Shown: positions 1,887 to 20,900 of the stretch, one piece after another | How the letters are laid out: every line of letters begins with the position of its first letter | Position numbering within the stretch: position 1 is the stretch's first letter | IMG/VR virus record: IMGVR_UViG_3300030103_004182 | Span: 1 to 35,386 of that record | DNA from: a virus | Direction: 5' to 3' (one strand) | Length of the DNA stretch: 35,386 bases | Made by a program: the position numbers and the translations under genes | Notes under the pieces: model-generated | What the model saw: the letters and a program-made list of their open reading frames with translations, nothing else | Told to the model about the DNA's origin: nothing | The model's database searches: none

Positions 1887-2237
1887 ATGATTTTAAATAT
1901 TACATATTATGACAACAACAGGAAATTATTTATTAGAAACCGAAATAAGCAATCGGAAAAATTGGGCTTTGATTTGTCCTATTATATAGATAAGAATAAT
2001 TATATTAATGGATTGAATATAAGGAAGTTATTATATACATATCCTGAATTAAGTATAAAAGCGACGACTCTAAAAGGTGAAGATAAGACCAATTTAGTAT
2101 TGTTATCGGCTATTGATAAGAATGAGGTTAGCACCAATGATCTTCGCAAGTTGATAAAAGTACAAGTTCCAAACGGACTTGGATATAGAACTGATTCTTC
2201 ACAGCAGAAACAATTTTGCGAGAATTTAGTTCTGTAA
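1887..2237 (+). CDS. Hypothetical protein, 116 aa, overlapping rusA tail to tail
   Basis: A good AAGGAG precedes the ATG by 6 bases and the gene directly follows copy 2 of the Cys-rich pair. The protein is mixed alpha/beta in character, basic, with many Asn and Tyr residues. I recognise no family. Its last 110 bases overlap the 3' end of the leftward RusA gene, so the C-terminal 36 residues share DNA with the RusA tail. The N-terminal two thirds are the better supported part. Confidence 0.6.
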   Translation: MILNITYYDNNRKLFIRNRNKQSEKLGFDLSYYIDKNNYINGLNIRKLLYTYPELSIKATTLKGEDKTNLVLLSAIDKNEVSTNDLRKLIKVQVPNGLGYRTDSSQQKQFCENLVL

Positions 2238-2610
2238 TGTACTTATCATCGATATCGAGATTTTTGATAAGGATGTCATTAATCTCACGACCATTGAAAC
2301 GTTTGTCAAAGATATTATCTTGTACAAGCTTTTCAATATTAGTAAGGTCACAGCTACGTGCCGAAATTAACTTTTGTTTAGTAAATAAAATAGATTTGGG
2401 CATGCAGAAGCGATATGAGGCTTTTATACCGTGTATCTTAGGATCAAATTTAGACCTAAGTTCGTCAAACGATTTTTGTATATTAGCTTCTTGAAGTTGT
2501 AGTAAAAAAGTAGAACGCCATTTTCGGGCATCTTTAGTTAGTTGACGATTACGGTAGTATGCTTTATTAACGGAAAAGGGTTTTGAATTTACAGTAAACT
2601 GGATAATCAT
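2128..2610 (-). CDS. rusA: RusA-family Holliday junction resolvase
   Basis: RusA proteins are small dimeric nucleases that cut four-way junctions, useful for resolving recombination intermediates and branched DNA before packaging. The 160-aa product shows the family pattern: an N-terminal beta strand and loop (FTVNSKPFSVNKAYY), the central acidic motif DLTNIEKLVQD containing an Asp and the conserved Lys, and a later NDILI segment in the position of the second acidic site. It is longer than E. coli RusA (about 120 aa); the extra C-terminal 30-35 residues lie in the overlap with the gene at 1887-2237. It is the only leftward gene inside the rightward early block. No clear ribosome binding site precedes the ATG. 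It may be read from the leftward promoter at 3003-3031 or from a weak promoter giving a near-leaderless message. Confidence 0.8.
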   Translation of the reverse strand: MIIQFTVNSKPFSVNKAYYRNRQLTKDARKWRSTFLLQLQEANIQKSFDELRSKFDPKIHGIKASYRFCMPKSILFTKQKLISARSCDLTNIEKLVQDNIFDKRFNGREINDILIKNLDIDDKYITELNSRKIVSAVKNQFYIQVRLELVLLSTCEDHWC

Positions 2611-2644: not shown

Positions 2645-2955
2645 TGACAAAGAAAGATGACCCAAAATTAAGGTTAGTGTTATATAATGAAAAACACGTT
2701 ACCCAATTTTACGAGGAGATTGTAGTAAAGGAGGTAATTGACAATCTAATATTAAGTTTAATAATGTCTATGGATGCGATTGATGAAGTAGATAATAATA
2801 AAATATTTGGCGATGATGAAAGGAGGGATTTATATATTGAAATATTAGATGCGCTAGAATATTCTATAGATGTGTCTATGGGTGGTAGAGATGCCTTTAT
2901 TCGGGGTATGGATTTAAAGCCTGAAGAGTTTTATTTTATGAAAGGTAAGGAGTGA
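2644..2955 (+). CDS. Hypothetical acidic protein, 103 aa
   Basis: An AAGGAG lies 11 bases upstream of the ATG. The protein is acidic and mostly helical, with a hydrophobic helix (VIDNLILSLIMSM) followed by acidic residues. No family is recognised. Its stop codon touches the base of the stem-loop at 2954-3000. A leftward transcript from 3003-3031 would be antisense to this whole gene, so its expression may be opposed by that promoter. Confidence 0.65.
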   Translation: MTKKDDPKLRLVLYNEKHVTQFYEEIVVKEVIDNLILSLIMSMDAIDEVDNNKIFGDDERRDLYIEILDALEYSIDVSMGGRDAFIRGMDLKPEEFYFMKGKE

Positions 2956-3000
2956 TTAAGCTCCGTGTCTGTAGACACAAACTTACTGGAGAGCTTAATC
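2954..3000 (-). ncRNA. Structured RNA leader: perfect 10-bp stem with inner hairpin
   Basis: GATTAAGCTC at 2954-2963 pairs perfectly with GAGCTTAATC at 2991-3000. Inside is a second hairpin, GTGTC-TGTA-GACAC at 2965-2978. There is no U-tract on the + strand, so it is a poor terminator for the upstream gene. Read leftward, the expected start of transcription from 3003-3031 is about base 2996, so the leftward RNA would begin inside this stem. It could be an RNA-stabilising 5' structure, a small RNA, or a transcript-end hairpin for the rightward gene. The strand choice is inference. Confidence 0.45.
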
Positions 3001-3002
3001 TA

Positions 3003-3031
3003 TTTATAACCTTGAAAACGAAGGTTGTCAA
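3003..3031 (-). promoter_or_regulatory. Leftward sigma70-type promoter with palindromic operator in spacer
   Basis: On the minus strand: TTGACA (3031-3026), a 17-bp spacer, then TATAAA (3008-3003). The spacer contains AACCTT, 7 bases, AAGGTT (3008-3026 in + coordinates), an inverted repeat touching both promoter boxes. A protein bound to it would block RNA polymerase, so this looks like an operator. The transcript would run left across 2955-2644 to rusA. Related palindromes occur at 11367-11414 and 35319-35347. Confidence 0.6.
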
Positions 3032-3088
3032 GAGTTTATTTTAAAAAAAGAGCATATACTAATAATTACACTTAGTTATGTAATATAG

Positions 3089-3117
3089 TTGTCAAAAGCC
3101 GCCGTTTTGTGTATACT
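3089..3117 (+). promoter_or_regulatory. Rightward sigma70-type promoter for the replication operon
   Basis: TTGTCA (3089-3094), 17 bases, TATACT (3112-3117): 5/6 matches in each box at ideal spacing. Transcription would start near 3124, inside the AATGACCA array, and run into PrimPol. It diverges from the leftward promoter at 3003-3031, with about 60 bases between them. The stretch 3032-3088 between the two holds nothing else I recognise. Confidence 0.7.
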
Positions 3118-3119
3118 GT

Positions 3120-3190
3120 AATGACCATGCAATAGCCATAGAATGACCACCAATGACCAACAATGACCATAAAATGGTCTAAAATGACCA
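3120..3190 (+). repeat. Phased AATGACCA iteron array (candidate origin or operator)
   Basis: Exact AATGACCA copies start at 3120, 3142, 3152, 3162 and 3183; a degenerate copy (AATAGCCA) starts at 3131, and an inverted TGGTC sits at 3175-3179. Start-to-start distances are 11, 11, 10, 10 and 21 bases, so the copies lie on one face of the helix. The array begins 2 bases after the -10 box and ends directly at the PrimPol ribosome binding site (AAAGGAGG, 3191-3198). Such arrays are typical initiator-binding iterons or cooperative operators; because it is transcribed, binding to the mRNA leader is also possible. Confidence 0.75.
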
Positions 3191-3204
3191 AAAGGAGGCA
3201 AAAA

Positions 3205-5325
3205 TTGAATTTATTTAAAGAGTATGCAATGGAATACACTCAAAAAGGGTATAGCGTTATTCCTGATAAGAGTCATACAAAACAACCACATATAAGACAA
3301 TGGAGTGCTTATTGTACTAGACGCCCAGAATTACATGAAATAGAGCAATGGGGCAATACATTTGATAAATCTAATATAGCTGTATGTTTAGGAAGCGCAT
3401 CTGGTATTATAGCCATAGACTTTGATTGTGTAGACCCTGAAATAATTAAGCTTGTAGAGGGCTTATTTCCACCTTCTCCTGTAGAAAAAGTAGGATCTAA
3501 GGGTTGGACTAGGTTTTATCGTTATATGGGCGAAGTTAGCAAAGTTATCAAATTTAATGGTGAGGTTGTCTTTGAGATACTTAGTAATAATAAAAAGACT
3601 ACTATTCCACCTAGTATACACCCTAATGGAAAATCATATACATGGAGCAATGCATCATTATTAGATATTGACATAAATGAGTTACCTGAATTTCCACCTT
3701 TCTTATGTTCACATATAGAGAGTAAGTTAAGAACAACTTATGCTCAAGATGTACAATATAGTGGAGGCAAATTTAGTTCAGCTTCGTTGGGTAGGAATGA
3801 TACATTAAAGACCGAATGTGCTAAGATGATAAATAATAATGTACCATTAGATAAAGCTATACAAGAATTAATTAAGATAGATGAAGAGCAACATGATACA
3901 CCTTTATTTACAGATGCTTCGCATCAAGGACATTTAGAAAAGTTTACTTCGGCAGGTAGATTTTACTTTAATATTTTAGAGACAATTAATAATAGACGGC
4001 ATATAGATAATAAGGAGTATTTAATTCCTTTATTAGAAAGTGCTGTAAACGAGACTTATGCAAAGGAGATAACTGAAAAAAAGTCACAAAGCGAGGGTTG
4101 CCAAAAAAAGTCAAACCCAGAATTACCGAAACCGGACGGTGCTCTCGCTGCAATACAGAATTACATATTAAAGAATAGTTTTATAAAGCAAGAAGCTTTT
4201 GCATTAAGTGCAGCACTATCTTTAATGGCAGTATTAGCAGGACGCAAATTTGAATTTGAAGGAGTAGCAAGTAATCTGTATATATTAAATGTTGCTCCTT
4301 CAGGAAGTGGAAAGGATGCTCCACAACAAAGAGTAAAGGAAATACTTATAGAGATTAATGCAGAAAGTTTATTAGGTGCAGGAGATTATGTAAGTGATGC
4401 TTCTTTAATGGATTCATTAGAACATTCACCTGTAAGGTTAGACATTATAGATGAAGCAGGAGGCTTATTAAGGAGTGTAAACTCAGGAGGAGCGACATTC
4501 AATGCCAAGATGGCAGATGTTCTAGCAGAATTATATACTTGTTCTACATCTAAATTTTTAGGTAGAGCTGTTGCAGAAGGAGTTAAAGGAAGTTGTATAA
4601 GACCGAACGTAAATTTATTATGTTCTACTACTCCGGCAGGTTTTACAGAAGGAGTTTCATTAAAATCTATTGAAAAAGGTTTAATGGGTAGATTCTTAGT
4701 ATTCTTAGGAGATGGAAATCAAGGAGCGCAACGTATAAAGAAGATGTCAACTTTAGACGAAGATACTATTATACAATTAAAACATTGGGCTAGTTTTCAA
4801 CCTAAAGAAAGTGGTACTCAAGTAGGAAGAGTTAGTCAAGTATTTTATTCTTTAGAAAGTAATAGAGGAGCTGCAGAAGAATTGGATGAGGCATTTGAAT
4901 ATTATGATAATTTAAGAAGGAATTTAAAAGATGATAATGAATTATTACCTATAGTAAGTAGACTTTATCAACAAATACTAAAAGTCAGTATGTTACATGC
5001 ACTGTCTAGATGTGAAATAGATAAGTTACCTTGCGTAGGACGTAGAGATGTAGTGTTTGCTAGGAAGTTAATAGATTATTATTTTGACAATATGCAAAAT
5101 TTAGTGCAGAATAATATATATAGAAATAAGAATGAGGAATATTTAGTGAAAGTTTTAAAAATAATTAGTGCATATGGTAAAGAAGGAATTACAAGATCGC
5201 AATTATATAGAAAAACTAGACAACTAAATAAAAGAGAGCGACAAGATATAATAGAAAATTTATTAGAAGGAGATCAGATTGCTCTCGAACTTAAAAAGGG
5301 TAAACAATATATAAGGAGTATATAA
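3205..5325 (+). CDS. PrimPol / DUF3987 primase-helicase
   Basis: Likely the replicative primase-helicase, acting at the phage fork. From a TTG start (3205) with AAAGGAGG 6 bases upstream the protein has 706 aa; an ATG at 3163 would place the iteron array inside the gene and lacks a ribosome site, so I prefer TTG. Residues about 1-175 match the bifunctional primase/polymerase N-terminal domain: KQPHIRQW, motif I DFD (D72, D74) and motif II SIH (S137, H139). From about residue 310 a DUF3987-type helicase-like region follows, with Walker A APSGSGKD (K370) and Walker B-like DIIDEAGG (D416, E417). The C-terminus has a winged-helix-like basic segment (KEGITRSQLYRKTRQ). It heads an operon with the exonuclease, whose ATG follows the stop directly. 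Priming and unwinding in one chain replace separate DnaG and DnaB. Confidence 0.85.
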   Translation: MNLFKEYAMEYTQKGYSVIPDKSHTKQPHIRQWSAYCTRRPELHEIEQWGNTFDKSNIAVCLGSASGIIAIDFDCVDPEIIKLVEGLFPPSPVEKVGSKGWTRFYRYMGEVSKVIKFNGEVVFEILSNNKKTTIPPSIHPNGKSYTWSNASLLDIDINELPEFPPFLCSHIESKLRTTYAQDVQYSGGKFSSASLGRNDTLKTECAKMINNNVPLDKAIQELIKIDEEQHDTPLFTDASHQGHLEKFTSAGRFYFNILETINNRRHIDNKEYLIPLLESAVNETYAKEITEKKSQSEGCQKKSNPELPKPDGALAAIQNYILKNSFIKQEAFALSAALSLMAVLAGRKFEFEGVASNLYILNVAPSGSGKDAPQQRVKEILIEINAESLLGAGDYVSDASLMDSLEHSPVRLDIIDEAGGLLRSVNSGGATFNAKMADVLAELYTCSTSKFLGRAVAEGVKGSCIRPNVNLLCSTTPAGFTEGVSLKSIEKGLMGRFLVFLGDGNQGAQRIKKMSTLDEDTIIQLKHWASFQPKESGTQVGRVSQVFYSLESNRGAAEELDEAFEYYDNLRRNLKDDNELLPIVSRLYQQILKVSMLHALSRCEIDKLPCVGRRDVVFARKLIDYYFDNMQNLVQNNIYRNKNEEYLVKVLKIISAYGKEGITRSQLYRKTRQLNKRERQDIIENLLEGDQIALELKKGKQYIRSI

Positions 5326-6279
5326 ATGGATTTAGGATTTAATAACGAGATTTCAAATGAAGACTATCATGGTGATAGAACTTATGTATCTTCTTCAGCT
5401 TTGAAATTAATTTTAAAAGACCCGAAGGAATATTTTAAGGTCTATGTAAAGAATGAAAAGAATAATATATCTAGAGCAGCATTTGATTTTGGTACTTATG
5501 TACATGCTTTAGTACTAGAACCGGATACTATAGAAAGGGATTTTGCAATATTTGATGGAGCTTCTAGACGGGGTAAAGTTTATGATGAATTTAAAAAAGT
5601 TAATGAAGGAAAGATTATATTAACTAAATCACAAGCATTGAAAGCCGATGGAATGGTAGAGAAGTTAAGAGAGAATAAAAAAGCTAATGATCTCATAGAC
5701 TTAACTGAAGGAGAAGTAGAGCAGACTTTATGTGTAGAATTAGATGGAGTTAAAGTAAAAGTTAGAACCGATTATAATAATCAAACTGCGGCTATAATTA
5801 ATGAACATGTTATACCTTTTGGATTAATTATAGATGTAAAGACTACTAGTGACCCTATAGATAAATTCTCTATAGGAAAAACTATAGCTAGGTATGATTA
5901 TGATTTAAGTGCAGCACTTTATATAGACGCTCTACAAGAACAATTAGGTACAGAACAAACTTTTATATTTTGTTTTATGAGTAAGCTAACTAATGAAGTA
6001 GAAATGTATCAAGCTTCAGATGAAATGGTAGAGAATGGTAGAAGAAAATATAAAGCAGCAATTAAAAAATTAAAAGCAGCTAGAGAGACAGGTATATATT
6101 TTGATGAGAATGCCATACCTACTGTTAACCTACCCTATTGGGCAAAATTTGAGGACATAGATAATGACGGAAGATCAGATGATAACACATCTAAAAAAGT
6201 TAAAAAGGTTACTAGTGGAAGTGAACAGAGCAATGGAGGAAATTCCTTATCTACCACACACCACCCTCAAGGCTTCTAA
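5326..6279 (+). CDS. RecE/YqaJ-like PD-(D/E)XK exonuclease
   Basis: This protein belongs to the phage exodeoxyribonuclease VIII-like PD-(D/E)XK group, which resects double-stranded DNA for single-strand annealing recombination. Signs in the 317-aa sequence: an N-terminal YVSSSALKLILKDPKEYF, then GTYVHALVLEP, typical of the family, and a nuclease core with D149 (RTDYNN) and D170-V-K172 (IIDVKTT). The family usually ends soon after a PxWA motif; here LPYWA is near residue 270 and is followed by about 45 Ser/Lys/Asn-rich residues. That tail overlaps the next gene by 116 bases. The start follows the PrimPol stop with AAGGAG 7 bases upstream. No RecT-type annealing protein is evident; the DUF669 protein downstream may be the partner. 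Confidence 0.8.
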   Translation: MDLGFNNEISNEDYHGDRTYVSSSALKLILKDPKEYFKVYVKNEKNNISRAAFDFGTYVHALVLEPDTIERDFAIFDGASRRGKVYDEFKKVNEGKIILTKSQALKADGMVEKLRENKKANDLIDLTEGEVEQTLCVELDGVKVKVRTDYNNQTAAIINEHVIPFGLIIDVKTTSDPIDKFSIGKTIARYDYDLSAALYIDALQEQLGTEQTFIFCFMSKLTNEVEMYQASDEMVENGRRKYKAAIKKLKAARETGIYFDENAIPTVNLPYWAKFEDIDNDGRSDDNTSKKVKKVTSGSEQSNGGNSLSTTHHPQGF

Positions 6280-17991: not shown

Positions 17992-20900
17992 ACCTTTAGC
18001 TCCCCGGGTTTATATGGTGTTGCCACCTCTATCTCTATACCCTTTATAACCAAAGGTTCATTATATGTATTTGTATGTTCTATAAGAAATCTACACGACA
18101 TACATTTAGTACCATTTAACTTAGTCATGCCCCATTTTTTAGTACTTTGATTTATAAGTAAATTATATTTTGTAGCTATAGTAGAGGGTCTATAATCTCT
18201 TTGTTGTTTTATACTATTTATATTTGTAGACGACCATTCTTGTCCATAACCATCTGAATCTGCTGAATATATTTTTATCCTTAAAAACTTTTTAGGTGTA
18301 GCCGGATCTCCCAAACTTTCCCAATGAGTGCCATATTTTGCAGGAATGCCTGTTAAAGTAACTAGGTCTGCTATTCCTTCACAATCACCTAATTTATTGA
18401 CTGCAGTTTTTTCAAAGCTGACTAAATGACCATCATTTGCTACTCCAGTTGAATTATTAACTTCACTAAGGTATGTGTAATATAATTTATTATTAAAAAA
18501 GGCAAAGCCGCCACTAGCTCTGATGACGGTCCAATCGAACCATGCATCTCTTTTATAATCGTATGCTAAACAAATACTACCGTCTGCACCTTCTATACCG
18601 TTATTTACAGCTTCAAAAGCACCTGCTCCCGAAGCTACTCCTTTATTAGGTATGTAGACTACAAATATATCTCTTTCCTTCCAATTATATGCTGATATTC
18701 TATTCCATCTTTTATCAAGATCATCTTTTAGCTTAGTAAATGTCTTTTTAATTAATTTACTAACTTCAACTACTTGATTACCTTTAACAGCAAATACGCC
18801 ATTTTTGTTTGTAAAGAACAACGATCCCTCTACTTCGGTTAAAGAATTAGGAGCTAATGTACCTATTTCCGGACCCGAGGCAATTTGGGATACACGAAAA
18901 TTATCTTGGATTAAATCTCCGGACATCATATGTATCTTATCTTGTTGAAATATGTATAAGACTTGTCCCACGGTTTTTATACCTGTAACTTTCTCATCTA
19001 CATTAAATGCATTTGTTCCTTGAGGAAAGTTTTCTGGGGCATCATAATCTGAATAATATACTGTAGTTGGATTATCCGGATCTCCAGATAATATAAGTTG
19101 ATTGTTATATGTAGTTGATAGAGTACATTTTTTAGGTGCCGCTCCGGGGATTTTGTCCGGAACTATGAAAGGTTCGGAGGCAGCTAAAGATGAATCGGAT
19201 TGATAATCACGAAATACAACTGTTTTCTCTGTTGTGAACGCACCTATATCAAAGTTATCATAACTATTTGCAGGTTGAGCTATTTCTTCTACGAGATAGT
19301 AGGTTGGATCTGCTATATAAGATTTTATATCTGGATACCAAATATTTTTTGTTCTGTATATTAATATTCTATGATTTGAAGCAGATGCCCACATTTCCCA
19401 ATCTGCTGCATTTACTACTCCTCCTGAAAAATTACTAAAATCTCTAAATTCATTTGCACCACTTGTAAAAAACCAATTTGGATCTCCCTCTACAACTGGT
19501 TCTACCACTATTTCCCAATATTTCCAGTTAGCAGCATCGTGAGATCCTGTATATCCAGCACCATTAGTTATTCCTGAATCTTTAATTAGACCCCCATCTG
19601 TCTTACTTAAAACTCGGTATTCTCTAGAAAGATAATGAAAATGTCCTGTAGCTCCATCAGAATGAGCTTGTTTACCTGCGGCAGTATCTACATCACATAA
19701 AGCCTTAGTTGTATGACCTCCGACTCCCTCATCGCATTGCCCTACACCTGCAGTATTTCCATGATTGTGTGCAAAGACAATATCTCCGACTTCTATTTCA
19801 CAGGAAATATTATTAGTTAAAGCTGCGTCTGTATCAATCGGGTATGTAGGCATGGAAGGACATTCTAAAGTATACATTACATTTCCCATTCCACCTATAA
19901 TAAGTGATCCCCTTGCATTAGATGTTGCACTATTTTCAAATGGAATACTTAGTTCGTTAAAGTCTACTCCAGTAGTTGAATCATAAGATAGACCTATATC
20001 TTGTCTAAAAACACCGAGAGAGTCGTCTAAATGTTGAGAAGATGGTGTTCCGTAATGTATATTTCCTTTAGCATCTTTGTGTACTTTTTGATACAAATAT
20101 CTATAAGAAGATGCACCTTTACTATCTATTTCTAAATCATCGTGAGGTTCTATACTTGTATTTAGGGTTGCTAATGATGTATTTTCATCATAAGCTGTTA
20201 TGGAAGCAAACCCTGTAGTAGATCCTGCCTCTGAAGTATAAGAAAATATATCTCCTATACGTAGACTAGTAGTATTACTAGGGATAGGAAGAATATTAGT
20301 TGCGTAATGTATTTCAGTATAAGTAGCATTAACATCTAAATATTTATATATTAAATGATAAGATCCAGCAGGTAGATAATGATGTATTGTACAACCAGTA
20401 TTTCTAGTTTCTCCTGTCTCATCTTCTGCGAAGGATGCTATACTACCATAACTAAAACTTTGTCCCAAAACTAATGCTGGCGAATATTTGTGTATCCTTA
20501 ATACTCCTTTTTTATTCTTTTTAGATGTTATAGCTATACTTCCTACCTCAAACCATTGCCAAGAACCTCCTTTTTGTGTTAGAAAAGGAACATATGTATC
20601 TAGATCCCCAAACTCATCAGATTCTGATGTTCGACCTCCTACTACGTGTATACTTCCTGAAAGAGCTAATGAAATATTATCACAATAAGCAGTAGAGAGT
20701 GCAAAAGGTTCATCATTAAAGGTTATAGGTACATCATAAGTAGTTGTAGATTCAGTATGACTACCTAAAGTTAAGTCATGCTCATGATGCATAAATAAGG
20801 TTTCTGTATCTATTGAAAAAGAAGGTAAATTACTTACATTACTTACATCACTCTTAAATCTTTTTGCATCGGTTGTTCCATCATCTATAGTCGGTATAAT

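Follow-up and report, generated by a model that had tools for sequence, protein, structure and literature searches.

The initiator helicases SaPI Rep and SCCmec Cch2 bind the iterons of their origins via C-terminal domains; the Cch2 origin contains three AAGTG iterons in 23 bp, and the SaPI Rep and Cch2 origins lie downstream of the helicase gene (PMC7581432). The P4 alpha protein, according to work cited in PMC4234260, binds origin repeats with a C-terminal winged helix. For pRN1 ORF904 and phage BIP-1, a stem-loop origin downstream of the gene was proposed, and iterons were explicitly discounted (PMC4234260). The polymerase of phage NrS-1 recognizes the 8-nt sequence 5'-TTTGGTTA-3', of which the genome has two copies, as a priming template (PMC8718748), and its helicase region forms a ring (PMC7102993).

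Here we describe an array of short direct repeats upstream of the PrimPol-helicase gene of a marine phage, represented by a virus record of 35,386 bases that was analyzed as a whole and is called the window below. To our knowledge, the place and manner of replication start in PrimPol-helicase phages are largely unknown; a literature search for a phage iteron origin with a primase-polymerase matched no paper, which is weak evidence of novelty as the coverage of the search was partial. We consider it probable that the array consists of initiator-binding iterons read by the C-terminal winged helix of the phage's own PrimPol-helicase, and that the site most likely serves as a replication origin.

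The locus resembles the SaPI Rep and Cch2 systems in that a primase-associated initiator helicase of a mobile element is found with short direct repeats beside its own gene. In those systems iteron specificity resides in the C-terminal domain, and here covariation and a natural co-swap, both seen in sequence comparisons, would agree with such an arrangement. Unlike in SaPI Rep and Cch2, the array lies upstream of PrimPol in the window and in all array-bearing relatives, it has 6–8 units, one per helical turn, and the helicase is of the DUF3987 type with a fused PF09250 Prim-Pol domain. The alpha protein of satellite phage P4, as far as the citing work describes it, likewise has primase, helicase and C-terminal winged helix in one polypeptide, but with a TOPRIM bacterial primase where the present protein has Prim-Pol PF09250 and DUF3987. 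By analogy, the system may work like the SaPI Rep, Cch2 and P4 alpha origins, yet it is no member of these types, because its primase and helicase domains differ and the array is upstream.

With pRN1 ORF904 and BIP-1 the phage protein shares an AEP primase, a helicase and a C-terminal winged helix in one chain. Whereas a downstream stem-loop was proposed for these two, an iteron-like array lies upstream here, and it comprises several regularly spaced direct repeats near the initiator gene, as iteron origins do. A downstream non-coding stem-loop would have no room after PrimPol in the window, where this was checked, because the next gene starts at 5326, immediately past the PrimPol stop. In the Loktanella phage pCB2051-A (L010, 4150–4600), large inverted repeats lie directly downstream of the DUF3987 primase gene and recall the kind of stem-loop put forward as an origin for pRN1 and BIP-1. 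The NrS-1 polymerase, finally, also comes from a phage, is a PrimPol-helicase of about the same size and recognizes a specific sequence; in contrast to its two-copy template motif, the present sites form a phased array, and their specificity tracks the C-terminal domain.

A phased array upstream of the PrimPol-helicase gene

The features of the region are, with positions in the window:
3030–3089, no strand assigned: AT-rich stretch, 82% A+T, candidate DNA unwinding element adjoining the array
3089–3117, plus strand: sigma-70-like promoter TTGTCA-17-TATACT, 10/12 matches (–35 box TTGTCA at 3089–3094, 17-nt spacer, –10 box TATACT at 3112–3117)
3120–3190, plus strand: phased array of seven units with consensus AATGACCA, proposed iterons for the PrimPol winged helix
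3192–3198, plus strand: Shine-Dalgarno sequence AAGGAGG of PrimPol, conserved in the nearest relative, L002
3205–5325, plus strand: PrimPol-helicase of 706 aa with a TTG start at 3205 (Pfam, AlphaFold2)
5029–5325, plus strand: C-terminal domain with predicted winged helix, proposed iteron reader (AlphaFold2)

Exact copies of AATGACCA were found at 3120, 3142, 3152, 3162, and 3183, with one further copy in the 35 kb window at 18425, and a degenerate unit, AATAGCCA, begins at 3131. A first-pass annotation, made from the letters alone, had reported these five exact copies and one degenerate copy in steps of 10/11 (and 21) bp, and their number exceeds shuffle expectation: five 8-mer copies fell within 80 nt in the array, against at most three in dinucleotide shuffles of the window. 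Within the 2.5 kb before PrimPol, chains at 10/11-bp lags reached up to five units, while chains at other tested lags, or in shuffles, did not exceed three. The inverted copy that had also been reported is ambiguous; a repeat-like site is indeed present at about 3175–3180 (GGTC), but it can just as well be taken as a direct unit starting at 3173, AATGGTCT, the second degenerate one. Unsupervised motif fitting placed seven units at 3120, 3131, 3142, 3152, 3162, 3173, and 3183, with spacings of 11, 11, 10, 10, 11, and 10. The bounds of the array were as first described, its start lying just past the –10 box and its end at the PrimPol Shine-Dalgarno sequence.

Promoter matches of this kind occurred five times in the window against 4.8 expected by chance. 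The promoter is largely retained in L002 (TTGTGA-17-TATACT), and the putative transcription start would lie at about 3124, within the first repeat unit. The AT-rich stretch is among the top 1.3% of 60-mers in the window and is conserved in L002; an AT-rich 60-mer lies directly upstream of the array in most relatives, although it was only moderately unusual against controls. The cumulative GC-skew minimum, which had been suggested as an origin marker, fails to mark the array: it lay about 3–5 kb away in most records, at a divergent gene boundary, and GC skew is unable to place the origin because it is confounded with gene direction.

Some further features of this end of the window were observed. 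Between the gene at 2644–2955 and the PrimPol promoter there is a hairpin (2950–3010) with the stem GATTAAGCTC/GAGCTTAATC and an inner GTGTC-TGTA-GACAC (RNA fold z –3.3); in L002 its stems are retained and its loop is altered, and an Rfam search with it gave no family at a meaningful score. The protein of a RusA-like gene (2128–2610, minus strand) is 100% identical to that of L002, although the overall DNA divergence between the two phages is about 10%. A 45-bp repeat in three in-frame copies (178–310) lies inside the gene at 74–715, which is KNKDK-rich and resembles an HNH-type nuclease.

Pfam and AlphaFold2 give the order of domains in the PrimPol-helicase as Prim-Pol (PF09250), DUF3987 helicase-like AAA+ domain and C-terminal winged helix. 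In the AlphaFold2 model the N-terminal part matches the PrimPol of pRN1 ORF904, and the helicase part matches MCM-type AAA+ chains. The modeled winged helix includes H2 (664–670), H3 (676–688) and a two-stranded beta wing, with a pLDDT of about 90; solved winged helices superpose on it at 1.2–1.5 Å over about 63 residues with weak Foldseek E-values, and winged-helix Pfam families give weak matches in PrimPol relatives. Genes for PolA, DUF669 and a PD-(D/E)XK nuclease follow downstream of PrimPol in the window.

Arrays of the same phase in related phages

Scans of viral contigs yielded about 45 contigs encoding related PrimPols. At least 15 of these, besides the window, had a phased array upstream of PrimPol, and their PrimPols were about 47–88% identical to that of the window. 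Chains in the 15 contigs were five or six units long at lags of 10/11 bp, against three, rarely four, in shuffles; as several of them are near-duplicates, they represent about ten independent arrays. By motif fit the arrays of the relatives have 6–8 units in 10/11-bp phase and one orientation relative to PrimPol. The units themselves are clade-specific: AATAGGCA, AAACCTGTA, AAAGGTGTA, AAAGGTGCA, AAACGGACA, AAACCGACCA, AAACGTGTA, and AAACCTTGCA. The comparison of relatives proposed in the first-pass annotation therefore came out as anticipated there, with a conserved phase and a changing repeat sequence. Contig 30333 had a chain of four units, and the degenerate arrays of contigs 17763 and 2785511384 were recovered by motif fit only. 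In each of the nine whole records with a scan-detected array (window included), the PrimPol array was the top-scoring phased chain, and five of the nine had no second chain of four or more.

The position of the array varied. In several relatives it lies within a small ORF, or 0.3–1.3 kb and at least one gene ahead of PrimPol; as small genes intervene or an ORF overlaps the array, the leader position varies more than the phase. The overlapping small ORFs (L037, 4360–4548; L028, 3220–3429; L056, 4465–4707; L041, 3752–3940) encode about 60–80 aa and are hydrophobic at the N-terminus. Those of L037 and L028 share a conserved C-terminal sequence, KRRPFLP[WH]EV, with the coding DNA differing by synonymous changes, which suggests that the repeats are part of a real gene.

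Below about 49% identity, most relatives had no phased array near PrimPol, though PrimPol and winged helix were kept, and no such array was found in six whole records of this group. Relatives that keep PrimPol and lack the phased repeat had been named beforehand as an observation that would speak against the proposal; this situation mostly holds under about 49% identity, but not in the near clade. Five distant isolate loci that were checked had no array, protein relatives among isolates being at most about 31% identical. Searches of cultured phages for near-identical DNA and of prokaryote genomes for relatives found none. A scan of the viral contigs for an exact triple of AATGACCA returned five short tandem repeats, which were unrelated and without PrimPol. 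Repeats of 15 and 21 bp in distant relatives were set aside as well, being far from PrimPol and resembling low-complexity repeats more than phased arrays.

Joint exchange of array and C-terminus

The closest relative, L002, has a PrimPol 88% identical to that of the window, and this identity is uneven along the gene. One further feature is defined by the dS comparison of the two phages:
4720–5325, plus strand: C-terminal module, residues 506–706, exchanged relative to L002

Between window and L002, dS was about 0.25–0.4 over residues 1–505 and about 1.0 over residues 506–706, and high identity resumed in the gene after PrimPol. At the array, DNA identity was 0.52, against near 0.9 in its flanks and in the 1.5 kb between array and module. 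Because identity drops at both places while the approximately 1.5 kb between them are conserved, the array and the C-terminal module (the last ~200 residues) must have been replaced together, most simply by recombination, with the catalytic N-terminus kept.

This pair also bears on which part of the protein would bind the repeats. The N-terminal domain had been put forward as the binder in the first-pass annotation; however, L002, whose repeat is different, has about 95% identity over residues 1–505. Since the C-terminus changed with the array and the N-terminal part did not, the reader is likely C-terminal.

Residue 669 and the 3' end of the unit

A single codon within the winged helix stood out:
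5209–5211, plus strand: codon of Arg669, the residue covarying with the 3' bases of the repeat

Across the phages, residue 669 and the 3' end of the unit pair as R with CCA, N with GTA, K with ACA, and Q, S or T with GCA. No other PrimPol column is invariably R for CCA units, invariably N for GTA units and something else in the remaining phages, in groups that were chosen after inspection of the data and with a unit alignment made partly by eye. A tree of residues 1–600 shows each of these two groups as polyphyletic. In simulations along the tree, one of 60,000 columns met the pattern (three of 60,000 without the most degenerate array), corresponding to 0.013–0.04 expected columns of this type per protein. 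Among five other operon proteins (~1,250 columns), none follows the unit as residue 669 does; this comparison covers a subset of the phage genes, several further operon proteins having too few homologues. Further scans of viral contigs for the residue-669 rule gave no new array-bearing phage, the contigs being cut and lacking the array region. By this rule, contig 32820_612, which has R669, would carry units that end in CCA.

Residue 669 sits at the end of helix 2, outside the predicted recognition helix. Arginine with G and asparagine with A are classic protein-DNA pairings. The S669/GCA case combines two contigs from a single metagenome: within PrimPol, the right end of L053 (3300031785_000192) and the left end of L017 (3300031785_000213) share 127 identical bases, and judging from this sequence overlap the two are probably one phage split by assembly.

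Origin, operator or other site

If the array is an origin, the winged helix would read one unit of 8–10 bp per subunit, and because the units recur every helical turn, six to seven subunits would come to lie along the same side of the double helix, roughly as many as a hexameric ring requires. Once loaded beside the AT-rich stretch and the promoter, they would melt the DNA and begin unwinding, and the PrimPol domain would then lay the first primers, so that replication would originate here. Array-bound PrimPol would in addition lower PrimPol transcription. Such autoregulation is to be expected because the array of the window covers the putative transcription start and the PrimPol leader; judged by this position, a second role as an autoregulatory site is plausible. 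We infer PrimPol binding, hexamer loading, origin activity and repression from the features described above.

The first-pass annotation had offered an origin, an operator controlled by PrimPol itself and a binding site in the mRNA leader as possibilities that might be linked. The comparison supports the first two, alone or together, with a phased iteron array that goes with PrimPol; an N-terminal reader is less likely than the C-terminal winged helix, and the mRNA-leader idea gains little from it.

An operator without origin function is unlikely, though it fares best among the alternatives. The PrimPol winged helix would then act as a repressor of its own operon during early infection, with replication starting at another site. 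Such a role fits the window, where the array runs from the putative transcription start to the ribosome-binding site, and the covariation in the winged helix supports binding rather than origin function as such. However, an array inside a small ORF, or separated from PrimPol by 0.3–1.3 kb and at least one gene, as in several relatives, suits an operator of PrimPol poorly, a simple operator would be expected to have fewer than six to eight units, and the nearest functional analogues are origins (PMC7581432).

Somewhat less probable still is an operator for a different DNA-binding regulator of phage or host that happens to precede the PrimPol operon. Although a position near a promoter would suit it, the only column that follows the unit among the tested proteins is in PrimPol, and the closest pair of phages changed the array and the PrimPol C-terminus together.

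We regard it as very unlikely that the repeats are template sites for de novo priming, read in single-stranded form by the N-terminal PrimPol/helix-bundle domain as in NrS-1. The bottom strand of the last unit, TTTTGGTCATTTT, partially resembles the NrS-1 site, but the units of other phages are unlike it; single-stranded template sites need no helical phasing, and the N-terminal 310 residues are 92–95% identical in L002 despite its different unit. An RNA-level site, with the transcribed repeats bound by a protein in the PrimPol leader, is the least probable reading and finds little support. The array does lie within the putative 5' leader of the PrimPol mRNA in the window, but it showed no consistent RNA structure across phages (z –1.0, –4.1, +1.2) and no Rfam match, has the period of a DNA helical turn, and in relatives is contained in a different ORF or precedes further genes.

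The reading as an iteron origin bound by the PrimPol C-terminus can be extended, more tentatively, to an exchangeable specificity module. The array, with one unit per helical turn, would then be hexamer-sized, and residue 669 of the winged helix would set the bases at the end of each unit. Recombination would swap array and C-terminus as a pair, and the replicons of closely related phages would be mutually insulated; this might be the first such origin reported for a phage initiator of the PrimPol-DUF3987 type, with a specificity code that can be read. We hold this extended version to be possible rather than probable.

The near clade provides about ten natural initiator variants with matching, differing arrays, including a near-identical pair that exchanged both. 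Short DNA probes and exchanges of single residues would thus allow a direct test of the proposed origin, its reading domain and the candidate specificity residue. The variation of array and C-terminus suggests how related phages may keep their replication systems apart.
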